Translations under genes and position numbers: made by a program | Part shown: one piece after another, positions 1,800 to 25,714 of the stretch | Layout: each line of letters begins with the position of its first letter | How positions within the stretch are numbered: position 1 is the stretch's first letter | Assembly: GCA_017472965.1 (NCBI GenBank) | Contig: JAFUNR010000058.1 | Location: 1-32,533, forward strand | Reading direction: 5' to 3' | DNA length: 32,533 nt | Source: Oscillospiraceae bacterium | GTDB taxonomy: Bacteria; Bacillota; Clostridia; Oscillospirales; Ruminococcaceae | The notes under the pieces: model-generated | The model's input: the letters and a program-made list of their open reading frames with translations, nothing else | Database searches by the model: none | What the model was told of the DNA's origin: nothing

Positions 1800-4700
1800 A
1801 TGCTGACACAGGCACTGAAAGCCACACCCGAATATAAAAAGCTGCTGGATGCCGTCACGGGCGGGCAATGTCCCGCGGCGCTGTTCGGTCTGCCCCCCGC
1901 AGGCCGGGCGCAGATGCTGTGCGCACTGGCAGAGGATATCCCCCGCCCCTTTGTGCTGCTGTGCCCGGGCGAGGCCGAAGCCACCCGCTTTGCACAGGAT
2001 CTGACCGCACTGGGTCTGGCGGCGGCGGTATACCCCGCCCGCGATTTTGTGCTGCGCAACATCGAAAGCCAGAACCACGAATACGAATACCGCCGGCTGC
2101 AGGTGCTGGGCGATCTGGTGGGCGGGCGCGTGCGGGTGCTGTGCGCCTCTGCCGAGGGTGCACTGCAGCACACCATGCCGAAAGCAGAGTTTCTGCGCAA
2201 CACCCTGACGCTTCGCCCGGAGATGGAGCTGCCGCAGAAGGAGCTGACCGCACGGCTGCACGCGGCGGGTTATTACCGCCGCGACCGCGTGGAAGGCCCC
2301 GGCCAGTTCAGTGTGCGGGGCGGCATTGTGGATATCTATGCGCCGGATATGACGGTGCCCGCCCGTCTGGAATACTGGGGCGATGTCATCGATTCCATTC
2401 ACAGCTTTGATCTGATGAGCCAGCGCCGCGACAAAGCGCTGGAAAAAATCTATCTTTCCCCTGCCCGCGAGGTGCTGTTCGGCGCGGCGCAGGAATCGCT
2501 GCAGTTTCTTTCCGCCGCTATCGAAGCGCACAAGGGCAAAGCGAAGGAGCAGCTGGCCCGCGCCGCCGAAAGCGAGCTGGCCCAGCTGCGCGCCGGTCTG
2601 ATGCCCGCCAGCATGGATAAATTCCTGCCGCTGCGCTACCCTGTTCCCGCCACCGTGCTGGATTATGTGAACGATCCGGTGCTGTTTCTTGACGAGCCGG
2701 GCGGCATACGCGAAGCGCTGGATACCGCCGGCTGGCGTTTCGGCGAAGAGGTGCGCGGCCTGCTGGAGGAGGGTGTGCTGAGTCCGCAGCTCACCGCCTT
2801 TTACGGGGACTGGGGGGATCTGGTGCAGCTGGCTCACCGCGTACCCGCCGTGCTGCAGGACAACTTCACCCGCACCCTGAGCGATTTCAGCCTGAAAACG
2901 CTGCTCTCCGTCACCTGCCACAGTCTGCCGGTGTGGAACGGCGTGACTGCCGGTCTGGCCGAGGATCTGCAGCCGCTGCTGGAACAGGGCTATTTTGCCG
3001 CCGTGCTGGCCGGCACCGAACGCAGCGCCGCCTCGCTTGCCAAGGATCTGGCCGCGGCGGGCATCCATGCACTGGTCACAGGCAGGGATGTCACTCCGCG
3101 CCCGGGCTGCGCCGCCATTCTGACCGGACACCTCAGCGGCGGCGTGGAATACCCCTTTGCCCGTTTTGCTCTGTTCACCGGACGCGCCGCCGGCGCATCC
3201 GTCTCCGCTGCGCCCAAACGCAAGGCAAAGCCCGGCAGCTTCTCCACACTGGAGGATCTGAAGCCCGGCGATTATGTGGTGCACCACAGCCACGGCGTGG
3301 GCCGGTATGTGGGCATCCAGCGGCTGGACCTGCACGGTGTGGTGAAGGACTATTTCAAAATCAGCTATGACAAGGGCGACAACCTGTATGTGCCCGTCAC
3401 CCAGCTGGATCTGCTGAGCCGCTACGATGTACAGGGCGACGGCGAAAAGGTGAAGCTGGCACGGCTGGGCGGCAGCGAATGGCAGCGTACCAAGACCAAA
3501 GCCCGCGCCGCCACGCAGGAGATCGCCGGCGAACTGGTGCAGCTGTATGCGAAACGGCAATCCGCCGCGGGCTACGCCTTTGACCCCGACACCGAATGGC
3601 AGCGGGATTTTGAAGCCCGCTTCGAATACGATGAGACGGATGACCAGCTGCTGGCCACCGCCGAGATCAAGCGCGATATGGAAAAGGCCGCCCCCATGGA
3701 CCGCCTGCTGTGCGGCGACGTGGGCGTGGGCAAAACGGAGGTGGCGCTGCGCGCCGCCTTCAAGGCGGTGATGAGCGGCAAGCAGGTAGCGATCCTTGTG
3801 CCCACCACCATTCTGGCGTGGCAGCACTATCAGACCATTCTGCGCCGCATGGAGGCGTTCCCCGTCAATGTGGGGCTGCTCAACCGGTTCCGCACCCCCG
3901 CCCAGCAGAAGCAGACGCTGCGGGATCTGGCCGACGGCGTGTGCGAGATCGTAGTGGGCACCCACCGGCTGCTGCAAAAGGATGTGAAATTTCGGGATCT
4001 GGGGCTGCTGATCATCGATGAGGAGCAGCGCTTCGGCGTCAAGCATAAGGAAAAGCTGAAGGAGACCTTTGTGGGCGTGGATACGCTGACACTCTCCGCC
4101 ACACCCATCCCCCGCACACTGAACATGGCAATGAACGGCATCCGTGATCTTTCCAGCATCCAGCAGCCGCCCTTTGAGCGGCAGCCCATTGAGACCTATG
4201 TGCTGGAGCATGACGACCGGGTGGTGGAGCAGGCCATCCGCAAGGAGCTGGGCCGCGGCGGACAGGTGTACTATCTGCACAACCGGGTGGATACCATCAC
4301 CCACACCGCCGCCCGCCTGCAGCAAGCCATCCCCGAGGCACGCATCGGCGTGGCCCATGGCCAGATGGAGGAAAAGGAGCTTTCCGCCATCTGGCAGCAG
4401 CTGCTGAACAACGAGCTGGATATTCTGGTGTGCACCACCATCATCGAGACCGGCGTGGATGTGCGCAACTGCAACACGCTGATCGTGGAAAACGCGGATA
4501 TGCTGGGTCTTTCCCAGCTGTACCAGATCCGCGGACGGGTGGGCCGCAGCGGCAGAAAGGCATATGCTTATTTCACCTTCCAGCGGGATAAGGTGCTCTC
4601 CGAAATCTCCACCAAGCGGCTGGGCGCCATCCGCGAGTTCACCAGCTTCGGCAGCGGCCTGCGCATCGCCATGCGGGATATGCAGATCCGCGGCGTGGGC

Positions 4701-11059: not shown

Positions 11060-12421
11060 TTATCCGTGGGCCAGGATATCGCGGATATCCTTCAGGCCGT
11101 GCTCCAGTGTGACCACGATCACCGAATCGCCCACCTGAATACGGTCGGCACCGCGGGGGATGATGACCTTATTGCCGCGCATGATGCAGCAGATCAGCTG
11201 ATTGGGCTTCAGCTTCAGCTTCATCAGCGGTGCGGCGGTGGCGGCGGATTCCTCCTGCACGGTGAATTCCAGGGCCTCCACGCGGTCATCCAGAATGCGG
11301 TACAGGGTCTTCAGGTTGCTGCCCGCATCGTTCTGCAGCGCACGCACATACTGAATGACAAAATCACACACCATATATTTGGGATACACGATGCTGCCCA
11401 CATTCAGACCGTCCAGCACATCGTCAAATTCCAGCCGGTTGACCTTGGCCACCAGCTTGGCGTTGGTATGCTTTTTGGCGAACAGCGAGAGCAGGATATT
11501 CTCCTCATCCAGCTCGGTCAGGCTGACAAAGGCCTCCGTCTGCTCCAGACCGGCCTCCCGCAGGAACTGACGGTCAGCCACATCGCCGTGCAGCACGGTG
11601 GCTTTCGGCAGATCGGTGGCAAGCACCTCGCAGCGGGAGGCATCCTTATCCACAATGCGCACGGCGATGCCGTGCTCCAGCAGCTCTTTCGTCAGGTAGT
11701 AGCCGATGACGCCGCCGCCCACCACCAGTGCGCTGCGCACGGGATGGGTGGGCAGATGCAGCATTTCAAAAAAGGCCACGGCCTTTTCTTGGGTGGCTAC
11801 AAAGGAGACCAGATCTCCGCTGTGCAGCACAAAGTTGCCGTCGGGGATCCAGACATCCTGCTCACGCTCCACCGCACAGATCAGGATATCGGCGCCCAGC
11901 TTCTGCGGGATCTCCCGCAGGGCCACGCCGTCCAGCCTGTGCTGCGGCTGCAGCTCGAATTTGATCAGCCGCACACGGCCCTCGGCAAAGGTATCGATCT
12001 GGCTTGCCGCAGGAAAACGCAGCAGGCGGCTGATCTCCCGTGCGGCGGTCAGCTCGGGATTGATGATGGTGGAAATGCCCAGCTGCTGCTTGATGAAGTC
12101 CAGCTGGTGGCTGTACATCGGGTTGCGCACCCGGGCGATGGCGTGGCAGTGACCGGTCTTTTTGGCAAACATACAGCACAGCAGATTCAGCTCATCCGAA
12201 CCGGTAACGGCGATGAGCACATCCGCATGGTCCATGCCCGCCTCGGTGAGGATGGCATTGGATGCGCCGTTGCCTGTGACGCCCAGCACATCCAGTTCCT
12301 CGGTGAGCTGTGTGATTTTTTCGGGATTGGTATCGATGACGGTGACATTATGATTTTCTTCGCTCAGCTGACGGGCGAGCGCTCTGCCCACCTTGCCGCA
12401 GCCTACCAGTATGATCCGCAT
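11060..12421 (-). CDS. trkA: Trk system potassium uptake regulator TrkA
   Basis: 453-residue cytoplasmic regulatory subunit that binds nucleotides and opens TrkH. There are two tandem RCK modules. The first has a Rossmann start MRIILVGCGKVGRALARQL and the acidic ribose contact VIDTNPEK near 29-36, then TGNGASNAILTEAG and a TrkA-C domain to about 215. The second has ALVVGGGVIGYYLTKEL near 235, VLHGDVADRQFLREAG, and a C-terminal TrkA-C domain to the end. A duplicated arrangement of about 450 residues is TrkA rather than the single-module KtrA. Start ATG (12421-12419) has AGGAGG eight bases upstream. trkH follows. Confidence 0.95.
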   Translation of the reverse strand: MRIILVGCGKVGRALARQLSEENHNVTVIDTNPEKITQLTEELDVLGVTGNGASNAILTEAGMDHADVLIAVTGSDELNLLCCMFAKKTGHCHAIARVRNPMYSHQLDFIKQQLGISTIINPELTAAREISRLLRFPAASQIDTFAEGRVRLIKFELQPQHRLDGVALREIPQKLGADILICAVEREQDVWIPDGNFVLHSGDLVSFVATQEKAVAFFEMLHLPTHPVRSALVVGGGVIGYYLTKELLEHGIAVRIVDKDASRCEVLATDLPKATVLHGDVADRQFLREAGLEQTEAFVSLTELDEENILLSLFAKKHTNAKLVAKVNRLEFDDVLDGLNVGSIVYPKYMVCDFVIQYVRALQNDAGSNLKTLYRILDDRVEALEFTVQEESAATAAPLMKLKLKPNQLICCIMRGNKVIIPRGADRIQVGDSVIVVTLEHGLKDIRDILAHG

Positions 12422-18158: not shown

Positions 18159-18345
18159 CAATCATTCCGCAATAACTTTGGTAGTTATTCCAATGCGTTT
18201 TTGTACATCTTCCATAAAAGCGTGAAAATCTTTACAAAAATGTCCTTCCGTCAAAGACAAAATCTTTCTTTTTCCGCAGTGCGGCCACTCTTTTGCTTCA
18301 TTTGATAAAAGATTGACAAATTTCCGAAAAAGATGGGCCACCCCC

Positions 18346-18374
18346 TTGATAAACGCAGAAAAAACAAGTATAAT
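18346..18374 (+). promoter_or_regulatory. Promoter of the scaffold-GGGtGRT operon
   Basis: TTGATA (18346-18351), 17-base spacer, TATAAT (18369-18374), 42 bases before the ATG. A second TTGACA at 18313-18318 has no partner at the right distance. Confidence 0.75.
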
Positions 18375-18416
18375 AAGCTGGGTACCAATGATATTATTAA
18401 CAAAGGAGAGATCATC

Positions 18417-19109
18417 ATGAATTATTCTCATGAAGTCGAGCGTATGTGCCCGCTGACCAAGGGTCCCCACCATGGTCCGGCTCCCATCCCCGAAGAGGGC
18501 CGCTGGGTAAAAGCATACCAGATTTCCGACATTTCCGGCCTGACCCACGGTGTGGGTTGGTGCGCTCCCCAGCAGGGCACCTGCAAGCTGACGCTGAACG
18601 TGAAGAACGGCATCATCGAAGAGGCTCTGGTGGAGACCATCGGCTGCTCCGGCATGACCCACTCTGCCGCTATGGCCGGCGAGATCCTGCCCGGCAAGAC
18701 CCTGCTGGAGGCTCTGAACACCGACCTGGTGTGCGATGCCATCAATGTGGCCATGCGTGAGCTGTTCCTGCAGATCGTCTACGGCCGCAGCCAGACCGCT
18801 TTCTCCGAGGACGGCCTGCCCGTGGGCGCCGGTCTGGAGGATCTGGGCAAGGGTCTGCGTTCCATGACCGGCACCATCTTCTCCACCAAGGCGAAGGGCG
18901 TCCGTTATCTGGAGCTGACCGAAGGCTACATCACCAAGCTGGCCGTCGATGAGAACAACGAGGTCATCGGCTATCAGTTCGTCCGTCTGGGCAAGATGAT
19001 GGAGGCCATCCGTCACGGCAAGGATCCGAAGGAAGCTTACGAGAGCAACATCGGCACCTACGGCCGTTTCGCTGACGCCGCCAAGTACATCGATCCCCGT
19101 GAAGAATAA
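18417..19109 (+). CDS. IscU/NifU-like iron-sulfur scaffold protein
   Basis: 230 residues. The segment IGCSGMTHSAAMAGEILPGK (about 75-94) and the later VCDAINVAMRELFLQIVYG (105-123) match the second and third cysteine regions of IscU-type scaffolds (GCGSAIASSS and HC-S-x-LA). Candidate cluster ligands are Cys49 or Cys56, Cys77 and Cys106; an extra Cys11 lies at the N-terminus. It is longer than IscU (about 130), with an N-terminal extension and a C-terminal domain of roughly 90 residues. No NifS/IscS desulfurase is adjacent. It is paired, 18 bases apart, with the GGGtGRT gene. ATG at 18417 has AAAGGAG nine bases upstream. Codon use is highly biased to favoured codons, which suggests high expression. 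Confidence 0.85.
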   Translation: MNYSHEVERMCPLTKGPHHGPAPIPEEGRWVKAYQISDISGLTHGVGWCAPQQGTCKLTLNVKNGIIEEALVETIGCSGMTHSAAMAGEILPGKTLLEALNTDLVCDAINVAMRELFLQIVYGRSQTAFSEDGLPVGAGLEDLGKGLRSMTGTIFSTKAKGVRYLELTEGYITKLAVDENNEVIGYQFVRLGKMMEAIRHGKDPKEAYESNIGTYGRFADAAKYIDPREE

Positions 19110-19127: not shown

Positions 19128-20126
19128 ATGGCTAAGTTTGAATCTATGGATCGCCGTATGCCGAAGATCGAGGCATGCCTGAAGGCCAACGGTCTGGAGT
19201 CTCTGGACGCCTGCCGCGATATGCTCCTCGAGAAGGGCATCGACTGCGAGAACATCGTCAAGGGCATTCAGCCCATCTGCTTCGAGAATGCCGTCTGGGC
19301 TTACACTCTGGGCACCGCCATCGCTGTGAAGCGCGGCCTGAAGAGCGCCTCTGAGTGCGCCGCCGCCATCGGCGAGGGTCTGGAAGCTTTCACCATCCCC
19401 GGCTCTGTCGCCGAGCAGCGCGCCGTTGGTCTGGGCCACGGCAACCTGGGCGCCATGCTGCTGGATGACGAGACCAAGTGCTTCGCCTTCCTGGCCGGCC
19501 ACGAGTCCTTCGCCGCCGCCGAGGGCGCCATCGGTATCGCCCGCACCGCCAACAAGGCCCGCAAGACCCCGCTGCGTGTTATCCTGAACGGTCTGGGCAA
19601 GGATGCCGCCTATATCATCAGCCGTATCAACGGCTTCACCTATGTGGAGACCGATTACGATTTCGCCACCGGCGAGCTGAAGGTCGTGCGCGAGAAGGCC
19701 TTCTCCAACGGCGAGCGTGCCGCTGTCAAGTGCTACGGCGCCAACGACGTTCTGGAAGGCATTGCCATCATGAAGAAGGAGGCTGTCGAGGTCTCCATCA
19801 CCGGCAACTCCACCAACCCCACCCGCTTCCAGCATCCGGTCGCCGGCTCCTACAAGAAGTGGGCGCTGGAGAACGGCAAGAAGTACTTCTCCGTCGCTTC
19901 CGGCGGCGGCACCGGCCGTACCCTGCATCCCGATAACGTGGCCGCCGGCCCTGCCAGCTACGGCATGACCGACACCATGGGCCGTATGCACGGCGATGCC
20001 CAGTTCGCAGGTTCCAGCTCCGTTCCCGCCCACGTTGAGATGATGGGCCTGATCGGCGCCGGCAACAACCCCATGGTCGGCATGACCGTGGCCTGCGCCG
20101 TGGCCGCTTCTCAGGTCAACGCCTGA
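19128..20126 (+). CDS. GGGtGRT-family protein of unknown function
   Basis: 332 residues with the motif that names the family: GGGTGRT at 259-265, followed by LHPDN. Other conserved-looking stretches are CFENAVWAYTLGTAIAVKRG (about 52-71), GLGHGNLGAMLL, the ISRINGFTYVETDYDFATGE region and a small-residue-rich C-terminus (AGNNPMVGMTVACAVAAS). No membrane segment or signal is seen, so it should be cytoplasmic. In Clostridia this family is commonly encoded directly after an IscU/NifU-like scaffold, as here, so a joint role in iron-sulfur or metal handling is likely but not described to my knowledge. RBS AAAGGAGG precedes the ATG. Its last codons are the target duplicated at both ends of the downstream island. 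Confidence 0.9.
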   Translation: MAKFESMDRRMPKIEACLKANGLESLDACRDMLLEKGIDCENIVKGIQPICFENAVWAYTLGTAIAVKRGLKSASECAAAIGEGLEAFTIPGSVAEQRAVGLGHGNLGAMLLDDETKCFAFLAGHESFAAAEGAIGIARTANKARKTPLRVILNGLGKDAAYIISRINGFTYVETDYDFATGELKVVREKAFSNGERAAVKCYGANDVLEGIAIMKKEAVEVSITGNSTNPTRFQHPVAGSYKKWALENGKKYFSVASGGGTGRTLHPDNVAAGPASYGMTDTMGRMHGDAQFAGSSSVPAHVEMMGLIGAGNNPMVGMTVACAVAASQVNA

Positions 20127-20138
20127 GCGTAAAGCCTC
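20094..20138 (+). repeat. 45-bp direct repeat, copy 1 (3' end of the GGGtGRT gene)
   Basis: Covers the last codons, TGA and the following twelve bases of the GGGtGRT gene. It is identical to 24429-24473. It marks the left end of the AT-rich island and is a candidate attachment site. Confidence 0.95.
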
Positions 20139-20150
20139 TAACCGTACAAA

Positions 20151-20187
20151 AAATGCCTCTGATCATTCGATCAGGGGCATTTTTTCT
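20151..20187 (+). terminator. Terminator after the GGGtGRT gene (island-side copy)
   Basis: AAATGCCTCTGATC (20151-20164) pairs with GATCAGGGGCATTT (20169-20182) with one G-T wobble, loop ATTC, followed by T's. It has the same architecture as the terminator at 24485-24519. Confidence 0.93.
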
Positions 20188-20264
20188 CAGCCAATCAAAC
20201 AGTCCACTATATAAGACTTTTTTCAGAAATCGGAAAGTGTATTTAGCCTAAAAGCATGCAACTG

Positions 20265-20298
20265 AACGCCCATCAAGACAAAACTCTTGATGGGCGTT
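20265..20298. terminator. Hairpin downstream of the LRR gene
   Basis: Perfect 13-bp arms (20265-20277 and 20286-20298) with an eight-base loop, just after the LRR stop codon on the minus strand. Neither side has a good T-run, so termination is probable only from position. Confidence 0.6.
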
Positions 20299-20304
20299 TG
20301 AAAG

Positions 20305-23300
20305 TTAGTATTCATATACATAGCAGAAAGTAATATTATTTGGTTGAGAACCCGACTGTCCTTCAAGGGAAAATTCATCCTCGCTACCCAATACATAAAT
20401 CGTAATCGAAGAATCGCACCCTTCAAACGCGTACCACGAAAGCTCTTTAATGCTTGGCGTAATAACTACATCAGTTAGGTCATAGGCATCAATGAATGCA
20501 TACTTACCTATCGAAGTAATTCCATCATAAATATTTACTGTATGGTAGGCCAAATCACTCCATCCCGGAAAATTGTCATCATAGATTCCGACGCCATCGT
20601 CGAAATCAGGCATATCACCCGATCCAAAAATGATCAACATTCCTTCATTATCCAAAGCCCACTCGATACCTTCGTTTACACTACCCGAAGCAACGGTTAC
20701 TGTTTCAAAGGTAAACACCGCATTATCGAGGCCATTGTTTCGGTAACCAATAGAAATCAGGTTCCACTGCTCCCTAGACCCGGCATAATTAATCTCTATG
20801 ATGTTATCATCATCTGTAAAAAATGCTTCGGTTCCAATTTCCATCACAGTAGAAGGAATTGTAACTTTAGAAAGGTTAAAGCAACGAGCAAATGCATCAT
20901 CAGGAATAATATATAACCCTTCGGCAAGTGCTATGCTTGTAAGACTTTCGCACCCGCAGAATACATTACGTCCCATGGTGGTAACACCGTTAACCATCAC
21001 GCGATCTAACGATTCGCACCAGCCAAACGCCCAATTCCCCAATCCAGTTACAGTATCAGGGATATTTATGTACCTAAGATTGGAGCACCAATTAAAGCAG
21101 TATTGATCAATGTTTTGCAGAGAAGATCTTTCCGCAATCGCAACAGCCAACAAATTCTTGCACTCACTAAATGCGTATTCTCCAAGTACCGCTACAGTTC
21201 CCGCAATCTTTACTGATTGCAGATTTGTCAAACCGTCAAATGCATACGAACCTACACTCGTAACACCATCAGAAATAACAAGATACTTTACGCTGCTAGC
21301 ATACTCATCCCATGGTGCATCATTTGTTTCGGTCCAATCGGGCATTGTGCCTGTTCCGTTAATTGTAAGGATTCCGTCAGCATATAGCGTCCACGAAATA
21401 TTAGTGGAAGCAATCGTGCCGGTATGAAGGATTGATGCATTACTTTGTCCAGCATTAATCGTGCCACCAATAAGAGTATTGTTAGGATCGAAAATTGCAG
21501 TAGCATTCCACTGCTGCTCGGAACCTGCATAATGGATAGTTTTATACTGTCCGCCCAATCCGTTATGTCCAGCAATAGCGGCCACACTTTCAGGAATAGT
21601 TATCTCGGCGTAATCAATGGAAGCAAGATTTCCAAGTCCTAAATATGTAACACCTTCACCAATCTCCACCTCAGTTATGCTTTCTCTATAGCCATACCAC
21701 GGTCCATCACTAGCCGCAGAATAATTAGGCATCGCGCCTGTTCCTTCAAACCTCAGCAGTCCGTTATTTAACAGCGTCCATGTGATAGTATCGGTTATAG
21801 CTCCTGAATCCACAACAGCCATACTCGTAGAATTCTTTTTCAGTACTGCCTGCGAAGGAACTGTTTGGTCAATTACAGTGTACGTGCTGCCATTAGCTTC
21901 GCATAGATAGCTGTCAGGAAGATCTATGCTAATATCTCCCATAATTTTAGGTGTTACTATAGTTTGCAAATTATTGCATCCATATAATATACCGGTCGTA
22001 TCTCCTATGCTGACTGTATTGAAGCTACTTAGGTTCAGTGCTTTGAGAGATGTGCAATTTCGGAACATTCCGCTCATATCCTTAACAGCCGCAGTATTAA
22101 AACTACCGATATCAACTGTTGTCAGCGCAAAGCACTCAGAGAACATTCCGCACATAGACTCGATCTGGCTGGTGTCAAAACTTGTAAGATCTAGTTCGGT
22201 AAGATTTATGCACTCCAAGAACATAATTTCCATAGATGTTACTTTAGCAGTATTGAAATTGCTAACATCCAATTCGGTCAAACCAGAGCAACCGGAAAAC
22301 ATACAGGTCATGTTAGTGACTTTTGAGGTATCGAATCCGCTGACATCCAGTTCTGTCAAGCCTGAACATCTGTTGAACATGCACTCCATGTTAGTAACAT
22401 TTGATGTATCGAAACTGCTAACATCTAGGTAGGTCAAGTTCGATAACTCATAGAACATGTAACTCATGTCGGTTGCCGTAGAAGTATCCAATCCGCTAAG
22501 ATCCAGCGATACAAAATCTGTTCTCTCGTTATGGCTAAACAAATTACTTACATTAGCCGATGTAATGCCAACTTTCTTTGCATCTATAGACACAAAGAAA
22601 ATCGAAGCTTGCTCTGCACTAAGTTTCGCAAAGGGAGCAGTCGGATCGATAGAAACAGTATATTTCTCACCGTCTGTTGTGTATGTTGCTACTGCAGGAA
22701 TAGCAATCCCCTTTGCAGGATATGTTGTAATATCCTCAACGACAATAGTGCTGTTTCCCGAATCCATCGAACCGGTAAAAGTCAACTCATACTCACGGGA
22801 ACCATTATTAAGTGTATAAAAAGAATATGTATTATTCTCTTTATGTTCCACATAATAGTTGGACTGTTCCGTTGGAGGCGTAGGAGCCGGCACCTCAGGA
22901 TTTGACGGCTCGGCGGACATTTCATCATTGTTACCAAAAGCCGCATCCAGCTTCACGTCCGTAGCAAACTGGAGATTAACTTTCATTTCTGTGGCCACAC
23001 CGGTATCCGCATGGAAGTTTTCCACTACATCGCCGTCCAGATAAATCCAAACCGAAATAGCATCAATGACATTTTTCACCAACGGCTTGATTTGTGCAGA
23101 ATCCGCATTCTCCCTCAGATACAGATCACCATTTTCATCAGGCGCAGCGATTCCGTATACTTCACCTGTTAGCGTGTCCACAAAGGCAACACGGATTGCT
23201 TCCTGCAGCTTCTTGTTTTCTATCGTGATATTGCTACCACTGCCCTGCACCGCTTCCCACTCATCGTAATACTCCCAATTATCCGGTGCATTTTCTTCAT

Positions 23301-23958
23301 TGTAAATACGATCTACCGCCAAAGTCTGCAACAGCAGATTTGCACCTTCCGCATTCGTGCGGAACAACAGATCAACAGAAAAAGCGTATACATCCTCCAC
23401 ATAGCTTTCTGTCAGGCTTTGAATGCCCGCCGCACGTACACCGTAGTTGGAATAGTCGGCAAACTGCGCAGCTTCGTCAGCATAGGTTGCAGCAGCACCA
23501 GAATCATCGATGATTCTGATTCTGCCGTCCGGAGAGTATTGTGCAAACTGAATTGGCGAATCCGCATCCAAAACTTGGGGAGCATCCATTGCAAGATTCA
23601 ACGCAGCAGGCTTAAGCGAAACCTGCTGCAAACCATACCGCTCATCGCTCAAATCAATAAGGTTTCCCCAATAAGAGTTCTTTTCAAACATAGACTCTAC
23701 GCCAACACTCGGGTCCTCATTGGCAGAAAAAGCAAGCGTTTCAACTCCATTGGTATTGAGCGCAATTTCCAAGTTGCCGTTTGATCCCAGAACAGTGGAT
23801 ACACTAGTTATTTCCGGAGCCCGCGATAATGATAACCACGCATATGACGCAGTAGTGAGGAGTATCGACGCAACAAGCAGCAAACTTACAGCAGCATAAA
23901 GCCGCTTTCCAACAGACTTCTGTTGAATTATAAGCTCGTGAACATATTGATTATCCAT
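20305..23958 (-). CDS. BspA-like leucine-rich-repeat surface protein
   Basis: 1217 residues. A hydrophobic N-terminal segment (about 20-40) ends in TTASYAW and could be a signal peptide (S-Y-A) or an anchor. A unique domain of about 310 residues follows, beginning in a pattern (APEITSVSTVLGSNGNLEIA) seen on other clostridial cell-surface proteins, then a Pro-rich linker (about 352-372). Residues about 484-666 are seven tandem 26-residue units of the DUF285/BspA type (consensus LDvSsFDTSnVtnM--MF). The C-terminal half holds three modules starting with WTL-GxL-GTGxMPDW/Y and followed by BspA LRR_5 repeats. No LPXTG is seen. Start ATG (23958-23956) has GGAAGG upstream; the earlier TTG at 23976 precedes that box. 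Such proteins typically bind host or bacterial surfaces; ligand unknown. Base composition differs from its neighbours. Confidence 0.93.
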   Translation of the reverse strand: MDNQYVHELIIQQKSVGKRLYAAVSLLLVASILLTTASYAWLSLSRAPEITSVSTVLGSNGNLEIALNTNGVETLAFSANEDPSVGVESMFEKNSYWGNLIDLSDERYGLQQVSLKPAALNLAMDAPQVLDADSPIQFAQYSPDGRIRIIDDSGAAATYADEAAQFADYSNYGVRAAGIQSLTESYVEDVYAFSVDLLFRTNAEGANLLLQTLAVDRIYNEENAPDNWEYYDEWEAVQGSGSNITIENKKLQEAIRVAFVDTLTGEVYGIAAPDENGDLYLRENADSAQIKPLVKNVIDAISVWIYLDGDVVENFHADTGVATEMKVNLQFATDVKLDAAFGNNDEMSAEPSNPEVPAPTPPTEQSNYYVEHKENNTYSFYTLNNGSREYELTFTGSMDSGNSTIVVEDITTYPAKGIAIPAVATYTTDGEKYTVSIDPTAPFAKLSAEQASIFFVSIDAKKVGITSANVSNLFSHNERTDFVSLDLSGLDTSTATDMSYMFYELSNLTYLDVSSFDTSNVTNMECMFNRCSGLTELDVSGFDTSKVTNMTCMFSGCSGLTELDVSNFNTAKVTSMEIMFLECINLTELDLTSFDTSQIESMCGMFSECFALTTVDIGSFNTAAVKDMSGMFRNCTSLKALNLSSFNTVSIGDTTGILYGCNNLQTIVTPKIMGDISIDLPDSYLCEANGSTYTVIDQTVPSQAVLKKNSTSMAVVDSGAITDTITWTLLNNGLLRFEGTGAMPNYSAASDGPWYGYRESITEVEIGEGVTYLGLGNLASIDYAEITIPESVAAIAGHNGLGGQYKTIHYAGSEQQWNATAIFDPNNTLIGGTINAGQSNASILHTGTIASTNISWTLYADGILTINGTGTMPDWTETNDAPWDEYASSVKYLVISDGVTSVGSYAFDGLTNLQSVKIAGTVAVLGEYAFSECKNLLAVAIAERSSLQNIDQYCFNWCSNLRYINIPDTVTGLGNWAFGWCESLDRVMVNGVTTMGRNVFCGCESLTSIALAEGLYIIPDDAFARCFNLSKVTIPSTVMEIGTEAFFTDDDNIIEINYAGSREQWNLISIGYRNNGLDNAVFTFETVTVASGSVNEGIEWALDNEGMLIIFGSGDMPDFDDGVGIYDDNFPGWSDLAYHTVNIYDGITSIGKYAFIDAYDLTDVVITPSIKELSWYAFEGCDSSITIYVLGSEDEFSLEGQSGSQPNNITFCYVYEY

Positions 23959-23999
23959 GCAATCACCTTCCGCCAATATATGGAACTATTCTTCCTATA

Positions 24000-24028
24000 A
24001 TTATAGAGTTGTTCTTCCTGTTTGTCAA
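24000..24028 (-). promoter_or_regulatory. Promoter of the LRR gene with palindromic surroundings
   Basis: Minus strand perfect TTGACA (24028-24023), 17-base spacer, perfect TATAAT (24005-24000). TTCTTCC occurs twice in direct orientation on the plus strand (near 23989 and 24012) and a GAATTATAATTC palindrome lies just upstream. These are likely sites for the XRE regulator encoded divergently. Confidence 0.8.
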
Positions 24029-24077
24029 CGAATACTAGAATTATAATTCCTATATAACGGACGAGAGGGGAAGAAAG

Positions 24078-24407
24078 ATGCTGATTTTCGATTTGCACTC
24101 GATTGGAAACAAACTGCTGACGATTCGCAAACATACAGGTATGACACAGGCAGAGGTTGCAGAAGCCGCAGGGTTATCCGATCGGACATACGCGGACATT
24201 GAGCGCGGCACTGTAAATATGAGGACGGAAACCATTTTGCGCATCTGTAATGTTCTTCACATCACCCCTGACGAAATTCTGACGGAAGACAGCACCTCCC
24301 TGACGGTTCGGCAGACAGAGCTTTGGGAACGTTTGAATACCTGTACGCCAAAGGAAAAAGATACCGCTCTGCAAATTCTTTCCGTCTACCTGAAGTCACT
24401 GGATTAA
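24078..24407 (+). CDS. XRE-family transcriptional regulator
   Basis: 109 residues. A helix-turn-helix of the Cro/C1 type occupies about 11-65: IGNKLLTIRKHTGMTQAEVA, AGLSDRTYADIERGTVNM and ILRICNVLHITPDEIL. The C-terminal 40 residues are helical and probably dimerise. It is divergent from the LRR gene over a 119-base region rich in palindromes and is the only regulator in the island, so it likely controls the LRR gene and itself. RBS GAGGGG lies before the ATG. The target is inferred from position. Confidence 0.9.
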   Translation: MLIFDLHSIGNKLLTIRKHTGMTQAEVAEAAGLSDRTYADIERGTVNMRTETILRICNVLHITPDEILTEDSTSLTVRQTELWERLNTCTPKEKDTALQILSVYLKSLD

Positions 24408-24428
24408 ATAAAAACAATCTATAACATT

Positions 24429-24473
24429 TGCGCCGTGGCCGCTTCTCAGGTCAACGCCTGAGCGTAAAGCCTC
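24429..24473 (+). repeat. 45-bp direct repeat, copy 2
   Basis: Identical to 20094-20138. Here the coding fragment has no gene body upstream, so it is a 3' remnant of the GGGtGRT gene. It marks the right end of the island. Confidence 0.95.
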
Positions 24474-24484
24474 AAACGCAAAAG

Positions 24485-24519
24485 AAATGCTCCCGATCAC
24501 CCGATCGGTAGCATTTTTT
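24485..24519 (+). terminator. Second, diverged copy of the GGGtGRT terminator
   Basis: AAATGCTCCCGATC (24485-24498) and GATCGGTAGCATTT (24503-24516), one mismatch, loop ACCC, then T's. It has the same 14-bp stem, four-base loop and outer AAATGC/GCATTT and inner GATC/GATC as the terminator at 20151, but different middle bases. Confidence 0.9.
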
Positions 24520-24871: not shown

Positions 24872-25714
24872 ATGTATAAGATCACTGCAAAAAAAGCGCT
24901 GAACCCCACCGTGGTTCAAATGGATATTCTCGCCCCCTTTGTGGCCGCCAAGGCGCAGGCGGGGCAGTTCATCATTCTGCGTGTGGATGAAGAGGGCGAG
25001 CGCATCCCCCTGACCGTTGCGGGTTTTGACCGCACAGCGGGCACCGTGCGCATTATTTTTCAGATCGTGGGCGCCACAACCGCGGCGCTGGGACGCAAAA
25101 ACGCCGGCGATTTCCTGCAGGATTTTGTGGGTCCGCTGGGCTGCGCCACCCGTACCGATGGTCTGAAAAAGGTGTGTATCGTGGGCGGCGGCGTGGGCTG
25201 CGCCATTGCGCTGCCCATCGCACAGAAGCTGCATGAGCAGGGCGCGGCGGTGACCAGCGTGATCGGTTTCCGCACAAAGGAGCTTGTCATTCTGGAAAGC
25301 GAATTCGCCGCCGCCAGCAGCCGGCTGTGCGTGATGACCGATGACGGCAGCTACGGCACCAAAGGCAATGTCTGTGCGCCGCTGGCCGAGCTTTTTGCCG
25401 CGGGCGAACGCTTTGACGAGGTGATCGCCATCGGCCCGCTGGTGATGATGAAATATGTGGTGGAGACCTGCCGCCCCACCGGCATCCCCTGCACGGTGTC
25501 GATGAATCCCATCATGATCGACGGCACCGGTATGTGCGGCGGCTGCCGCCTGACCGTGGGCGGCAAGACAAAATTTGCCTGTGTGGACGGGCCGGATTTT
25601 GACGGCTACGAGGTGGATTTTGACGAGGCGATCAACCGCAGCGGCATGTACCGTCCCTTTGAGCGCCACGCCTACGAAAAGGACTGCAATCTGTTCGGCA
25701 AGGAGGTGCACTGA
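24872..25714 (+). CDS. nfnA: NADH-dependent ferredoxin:NADP+ oxidoreductase, small subunit (NfnA type)
   Basis: 280 residues of the ferredoxin-NADP reductase fold. The flavin-binding RIPLTVAG is at 45-52, VGPLG at 86-90 and the nucleotide-binding GGGVGC at 105-110. Near the C-terminus are Asp218, Cys222, Cys225 and Cys237 (DGTGMCGGC and FACVDGP), the expected [2Fe-2S] ligands of this subunit. With NfnB it couples NADH and reduced ferredoxin to NADP+ reduction by flavin-based bifurcation. Older databases name it sulfide dehydrogenase subunit beta. Start ATG at 24872 has AAGGAG upstream. The stop is one base before the nfnB ATG, so the subunits are coupled. Confidence 0.93.
   Translation: MYKITAKKALNPTVVQMDILAPFVAAKAQAGQFIILRVDEEGERIPLTVAGFDRTAGTVRIIFQIVGATTAALGRKNAGDFLQDFVGPLGCATRTDGLKKVCIVGGGVGCAIALPIAQKLHEQGAAVTSVIGFRTKELVILESEFAAASSRLCVMTDDGSYGTKGNVCAPLAELFAAGERFDEVIAIGPLVMMKYVVETCRPTGIPCTVSMNPIMIDGTGMCGGCRLTVGGKTKFACVDGPDFDGYEVDFDEAINRSGMYRPFERHAYEKDCNLFGKEVH

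Follow-up and report, generated by a model that had tools for sequence, protein, structure and literature searches.

Evidence for a recurrent attachment site at the 3' end of the GGGtGRT gene and a probable stranded, CIME-like island in an Oscillospiraceae bacterium

How does a segment that encodes no recombinase come to lie between two identical copies of the end of a chromosomal gene? The question is raised by a window of 32,533 nucleotides, which is the whole of contig C52 (JAFUNR010000058.1) of the Oscillospiraceae bacterium GCA_017472965.1, a metagenome-assembled genome (MAG; here G000) that is 85% complete. Behind the gene of a GGGtGRT-family protein, the window carries an AT-rich island with a leucine-rich repeat (LRR) surface protein and a divergent XRE-type regulator, enclosed by a direct repeat of the 3' end of that gene. 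The analysis reported here makes it probable that the GGGtGRT gene end serves as a recurrent chromosomal attachment site and that the island is a stranded remnant of the kind known as cis-mobilizable elements (CIMEs).

The two repeat copies are identical over 45 bp, without a mismatch, and 48 of 49 bases still agree when the comparison is extended. The GGGtGRT gene is intact and retains its stop codon at positions 20124-20126. GC content is 42-46% in the island vs 52-65% in the 1-kb windows directly outside it. A first-pass annotation, made from the letters alone, had described just such a perfect repeat around an AT-rich segment behind an undamaged target gene, and Pfam confirms the two cargo families that it named (Table 1). 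A query of 97 bases was found at exactly two places in its own genome; the repeat is thus not a dispersed sequence in the assembled 85%, an explanation that the annotation had set against insertion. The exact 45-mer had no match in a scan of genome contigs, and the island DNA had none among phage records. As the source is a MAG with 85% completeness, another strain's island might have been joined to this genome at the common 45-bp sequence. We regard such an assembly artifact as extremely unlikely, since a single contig contains both junctions, the repeat is shorter than an ordinary read, and the same layout is present in many other genomes.

Extra copies of the gene end recur across the family. 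With the last 47 residues of the GGGtGRT protein as the query, 315 of 396 family genomes gave a match and 39 of these gave more than one. A clear extra tail piece is present in 20 of the 315 (G002, G015, G023, G063, G120, G135, G178, G187, G204, G219, G238, G251, G254, G268, G269, G295, G335, G360, G367, and G416). This count leaves out second full-length or long copies (G186, G274, G296, and G406), the contig-edge cases G116 and G413 (the latter may be real, as its two copies differ), and tail matches within frames of ~630 to 670 aa. The second copy of the window is itself too short for a 47-residue search; therefore, islands with short repeats are undercounted. A search for short, window-type tail copies in 51 close relatives, which may miss shorter or more divergent ones, found the gene end in 40 at E < 1e-3 and, among the matches listed, two gene-end matches only in G187, where the geometry is that of the class A integrases described below. 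Gene and tail on one contig are spaced from ~1 kb (G204) to 68 kb (G251), and other cargo lies between the tail copies in other genomes, as would be expected from the first-pass proposal. The excluded frames of ~630 to 670 aa deserve a separate remark: they match the GGGtGRT tail weakly and repeatedly in many genomes, perhaps through a short glycine-rich motif common to another protein family, possibly the membrane pyrophosphatases.

The same gene end has tyrosine integrases beside it. Twenty genomes, including G000, were screened with PF00589, and the figures that follow hold among the matches listed. The distance from an integrase to the gene or to a tail copy, measured between nearest ends, is at most ~2.4 kb in 11 genomes (G251, G335, G416, G360, G295, G063, G254, G023, G367, G268, and G238), and no integrase is near either in the other nine (G000, G002, G187, G178, G204, G219, G116, G120, and G135); the nearest one in G120 is 13 kb away. 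These 11 integrases form two lineages with next to no mutual likeness. In class A (G295, G063, G254, and G023; 317 to 361 aa; 49-62% alike), the integrase gene follows the GGGtGRT gene or a tail immediately and in the same orientation, and the tail copies mostly start ~90 bases ahead of the stop. In class B (G251, G335, G416, G360, G367, G238, and G268; 406 to 501 aa), the integrase gene has the opposite orientation; it faces the GGGtGRT gene in four genomes and occupies the far end in the other three, and the tail copies start ~63 to 68 bases ahead of the stop; SAM_3 and Arm-DNA-bind_4 domains were found in both class B proteins scanned. A class A model, built from the four genomes concerned and scored on five candidates per genome, matched only those four of the 396 family genomes at E < 1e-160, in every case at the GGGtGRT gene. 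In G022, which gave the next-best match (E 6.6e-88), the match and the GGGtGRT gene are on different contigs. The eight class A proteins from the site group together with a support of 87/99 in a tree of 19 integrases.

The site was recovered independently in 80 named loci fetched by the GGGtGRT gene alone, 79 of which have a readable stop. Class A/B integrase matches were found within 1.5 kb in 4 of 66 downstream stretches vs 0 of 70 upstream stretches. The four are L123 (class A), L157 (class A, in two overlapping frames), L149 of Oscillibacter valericigenes An890 (class B), and the weak L145, a 376-aa frame whose class B match reaches only 19 bits. Tail copies follow the gene in L104, L125, L129, L140, L160, L166, and L168, the sequence available for this search varying up to 10 kb. 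With L145 left out, 12 of the 79 loci have a class A/B integrase or a tail copy. L019 has a weak 70-aa class B piece, and in L093 and L106 the repeat covers only bases behind the stop. The upstream stretches also bear on the possibility that the repeat arose by homologous or illegitimate recombination, e.g., as a duplicated gene end carried with a neighboring segment. An island without an integrase would fit this origin, as would the short direct tail duplications without cargo of L129 and L160, which are not among the islands counted below, and an 18.4-kb segment in G187 whose genes mostly look metabolic by reading. However, the same gene end has been used many times with different cargo, integrases sit at the same spot in two recurring geometries, and the upstream stretches hold none of them, which makes this origin very unlikely.

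Viral and more distant sequences extend the pattern. A tail-only DNA pattern retrieved five stretches from viral contigs, three of which have a class A/B integrase beside the tail. IMG/VR contig 3300018878_002442 has tails at 3371-3451 (L189) and 11184-11285 (L192), 7.7 kb apart; a class A integrase follows each of them, and phage-like tail genes adjoin (by reading). This contig is a case of tandem elements at the GGGtGRT site. Five fecal scaffolds labeled 'Bacteriophage sp.' carry whole or partial GGGtGRT genes with no class A/B integrase in the parts read and were given no weight. A record from Phocaeicola massiliensis (OY725990.1; L198:5137-8440) contains the GGGtGRT gene, a 2.2-kb insert, and a second tail copy, the insert encoding a 132-aa frame with an integrase-type arm domain alone and a nucleotidyltransferase-HepT pair. 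The site thus seems to be in use in Bacteroidota too. The record is labeled a plasmid, a label that looks doubtful. Extra tails in 20 family genomes and integrases beside the site bear out the site-specific insertion at a gene 3' end that the first-pass annotation had suggested, and its idea that the GGGtGRT end may be an attachment site has gained ground from genomes of the family, from other Clostridia, and from this one Bacteroidota record.

Where, then, is the integrase of the island in the window? The annotation had noted nothing inside that could catalyze insertion, and we likewise found no class A/B remnant in the window across all frames of at least 15 aa, unfiltered and with E up to 10 (best E 0.63). 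In a full listing for its own genome, contig C52 has no tyrosine (PF00589) or large serine (PF07508) recombinase; the three large serine recombinases and the five PF00589 hits that passed the cut-off (two in one gene) are all on other contigs. The further suggestion of a mobilizable cassette served by an integrase elsewhere fared less well. In the assembled 85% of G000, class A is absent at E <= 1e-40, and the matches listed include neither class. Four of its tyrosine-recombinase frames, located in three stretches, reach no more than 38 bits with the class A model and 93 with the class B model; whole-length reference scores are 407 to 636 bits for class A members and 523 to 661 for class B. 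Because of these low scores and the missing class A integrase, service in trans from the same genome, of which 15% is unseen, is not supported. Elements in other genomes often enclose their integrase, or it is broken in place.

Decay does occur at the GGGtGRT site, as is evident from broken class A genes in five loci. Right behind the gene, class A is reduced to two short frames in G002, to the two frames of L157, and to a 50-aa frame of 23 bits in G063. G052 (L028) retains model positions 7-109 of 342 behind the gene and nothing more in 1,485 bases, and L125 has a 64-aa class A piece behind its second tail. In L101 and L135, the class A pieces are truncated by the end of the contig and therefore provide no evidence of decay. 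In 18 islands from 16 loci, a single contig includes both the gene and the tail. Among these, an intact integrase is present in four (G268, G251, G335, and G295) and a remnant in two (G002 and Phocaeicola). No integrase or remnant was detected in the other 12 (the window, G187, G178, G204 with two, G056, L104, L125, L140 with two, L166, and L168) by the class A/B models in all, by PF00589 in the window, G187, G178, and G204, and by Pfam on some open reading frames (ORFs), which in the named islands were 10 of the larger ones. Among the 12 are several neat, small units, with a ribonuclease and barstar (G056), a Fic protein (G178), a GH28 protein and a regulator (L104), or a PFL-like gene and a gene that is AraC-like by reading (L168). 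In G204 (L078:1020-3362), GGGtGRT is followed by two one-gene units in tandem, both ~1 kb long and terminated by a tail copy, whose proteins belong to no Pfam family. In G187 (L074, C65:1-19400), the 18.4 kb between the gene and a tail copy (96% alike) includes no integrase and consists mainly of metabolic and transport-like genes (by reading); this segment may be captured chromosomal DNA.

Islands of this kind lend some weight to a cargo-only cassette, i.e., an island that never had an integrase and was moved in trans by a site-matched one, like a nonautonomous or satellite element. The 12 integrase-free islands, with several small units among them, agree with it, and so does the window, where the regulator gene stops just short of the repeat and every trace of an integrase is missing. 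Nonetheless, neither G000 nor G002 has a class A match at E <= 1e-40, and the class A model matched 13 genomes, G178, G187, and G204 not among them. Those recombinases of G000 and G204 that were read are only distant matches to classes A and B, and damaged class A genes at this gene end point to decay. On balance, a cargo-only origin appears rather unlikely. A bolder version is a cassette system at the GGGtGRT end, in which integrase-free and often one-operon units ending in a tail copy would be stacked in tandem and moved by a dedicated integrase clade of other elements at the site, as a functional parallel to integron cassettes; this we consider distinctly unlikely.

The preferred interpretation, an element stranded at a recurrent attachment site, would proceed as follows. 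Tyrosine-recombinase elements would use the GGGtGRT 3' end as their attachment site, and an element whose attP holds a copy of the last 45 bases together with its own terminator would recombine at the gene end. The gene end would be restored with the terminator of the element, and the old end and the old terminator would be shifted to the far side. Later loss of the integrase would leave the LRR surface protein and the divergent XRE regulator behind. Renewed movement would be conceivable only if a related element landed in one of the repeats and carried the island along or if a matching integrase acted in trans. The hairpins behind the two repeat copies are 74% alike, and both fold strongly; the left one was probably brought in by the element, and the right one is probably the original terminator of the GGGtGRT gene. 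The stretch common to the window repeat and most other tail copies is formed by the last codons before the stop, 10 in number, which are a plausible crossover region. The inverted repeat CTCAGG-N6-CCTGAG is a possible but weak candidate for the core site because 3.9% of shuffles give one as good.

Several observations weigh against this interpretation. The island is known from a single MAG contig, and the window keeps no integrase remnant. The start of its repeat, 30 bases before the stop, differs from that of the class A and class B copies, so that geometry assigns the island to neither integrase class. The support of 87/99 for the site clade is below the firm mark of the program (95/80), and a wider control of 3 kb upstream found an integrase match in 1 of 66 loci (L113). 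In the same species and genus, no empty site was seen, the sole other genus genome (G001) ending inside the GGGtGRT gene, and the right-flank gene is not adjacent to GGGtGRT in G001 but sits elsewhere. That flank gene is downstream of GGGtGRT in L097 only, ~7.4 kb away, with 62% identity and on the opposite strand; L097 was accordingly rejected as an empty-site witness.

The cargo is made up of two divergent genes (Table 1). By reading, the LRR protein has an N-terminal membrane segment. The hairpin behind its gene is likely the LRR terminator, and the stretch between the two genes likely holds their promoters and an operator. Eight further overlapping ORFs (99 to 168 aa) in the island match no Pfam family. 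The XRE subfamily is rare. Matches at 59-73% identity were found in 3 of 119 other relatives (G056, G051, and G002), along with two more at 33-34%, and the G295 island, which occupies this gene end too, encodes an XRE protein of 72% identity. The divergent arrangement of the window is found again in G056 and G002, where the neighbor of the XRE gene is surface- or lipoprotein-like; in G002, an LRR-like gene comes next (all by reading). The XRE protein probably controls its divergent LRR neighbor, with a reservation arising from G051 and G295, in which the divergent neighbor is no evident surface gene. The N-terminal part of the LRR protein has relatives in 1 of the 119 other genomes (G432). Large genes with this part, at 36-46% identity, also occur in the same genome as the island (G000:C33:24652-25047 and 38511-40307). 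On the other side of the target gene, the 258-aa gene adjoins GGGtGRT in relatives too, i.e., the two form a conserved gene pair.

Table 1. Features of the GGGtGRT locus and its island (positions in the window)
Feature	Position	Strand	Remarks
258-aa gene	18333..19109	+	No Pfam family; directly upstream of GGGtGRT
GGGtGRT gene (PF14057), target	19128..20126	+	Pfam E 3.7e-187; intact
Left repeat copy, putative attL side	20094..20138	+	Last 10 codons, stop, and 12 bases of GGGtGRT
Inverted repeat, possible core site	20110..20127	.	Spans stop codon, within 45-bp repeat
Terminator hairpin 3' of left copy	20148..20185	+	-24.1 kcal/mol, z -8.4
Hairpin 3' of LRR gene	20265..20298	-	-24.5 kcal/mol
Surface protein, 1217 aa	20305..23958	-	DUF285 and BspA-type LRR_5 repeats (Pfam)
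Divergent intergenic stretch, 119 bp	23959..24077	.	Between LRR and XRE genes
XRE/HTH_3 regulator, 109 aa	24078..24407	+	Pfam
Right repeat copy, putative attR side	24429..24473	+	21 bases 3' of XRE stop
Terminator hairpin 3' of right copy	24482..24519	+	-23.4 kcal/mol
First gene past island	24872..25714	+	DHODB-type iron-sulfur domain

Among known systems, the CIMEs of streptococci offer the closest comparison. They have kept their att sites and lost recombination and transfer genes, measure 1.2 to 13 kb with cargo, reside at the 3' ends of the conserved genes rpmG, rpsI, fda, and rplL, and occur in tandem with intact elements, as described in two reports (PMC7563491, PMC5704250). The island in the window resembles them in its flanking 45-bp direct repeats, taken as attL and attR, in its lack of recombination genes (PF00589, PF07508, and class A/B remnants), and in its lack of conjugation or mobilization genes by Pfam in the two long genes and the eight ORFs. 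Tandem elements are present at the GGGtGRT site on the IMG/VR contig. The island differs from the streptococcal CIMEs in its target and in its host, which is uncultured and, judged by its GGGtGRT protein, related to Anaerofilum, Gemmiger, and Faecalibacterium. Its descent from an integrative and conjugative element (ICE) or an integrative and mobilizable element (IME) is putative.

Other systems share single traits with the locus. With the tyrosine integrases of ICEs, IMEs, and prophages that are specific for gene 3' ends, class B has in common the Arm-DNA-bind_4 and SAM_3 domains, and class B elements likewise leave the GGGtGRT gene end whole. Integrases of this domain type presumably resemble Tn916 Int. 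An autonomous ICE, IME, or prophage requires its own integrase, however, and the island in the window has none. Integrase-bearing genomic islands without transfer genes are well matched by the 6.5-kb element of G295, which encodes a class A integrase, WYL and XRE proteins, and a resolvase; the window island shares its site and XRE type but is devoid of integrase and resolvase. Elements that exploit Xer (IMEX) carry no integrase, and the window island also lacks a recombinase of its own, but its repeat lies in a coding gene end. Unlike in an integron gene cassette, the repeated unit of the window is the 3' end of a protein gene. No description of the GGGtGRT end as an attachment site was found in the full-text literature, a coverage that excludes subscription papers, and the accessible part of a study on Faecalibacterium prophages (PMC5883640) does not mention this site.

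To conclude, our findings depict a conserved and recurrent landing site in gut Clostridia that is associated with two integrase lineages. These lineages could guide the search for elements, mark the exact limits of islands, and supply integration tools for bacteria in which genetic engineering is difficult. Because many integrase-free islands share this one site, decay and mobilization in trans can be directly tested against each other. For the bacteria themselves, the GGGtGRT gene end would represent a route by which surface-protein and metabolic cargo enters their genomes.

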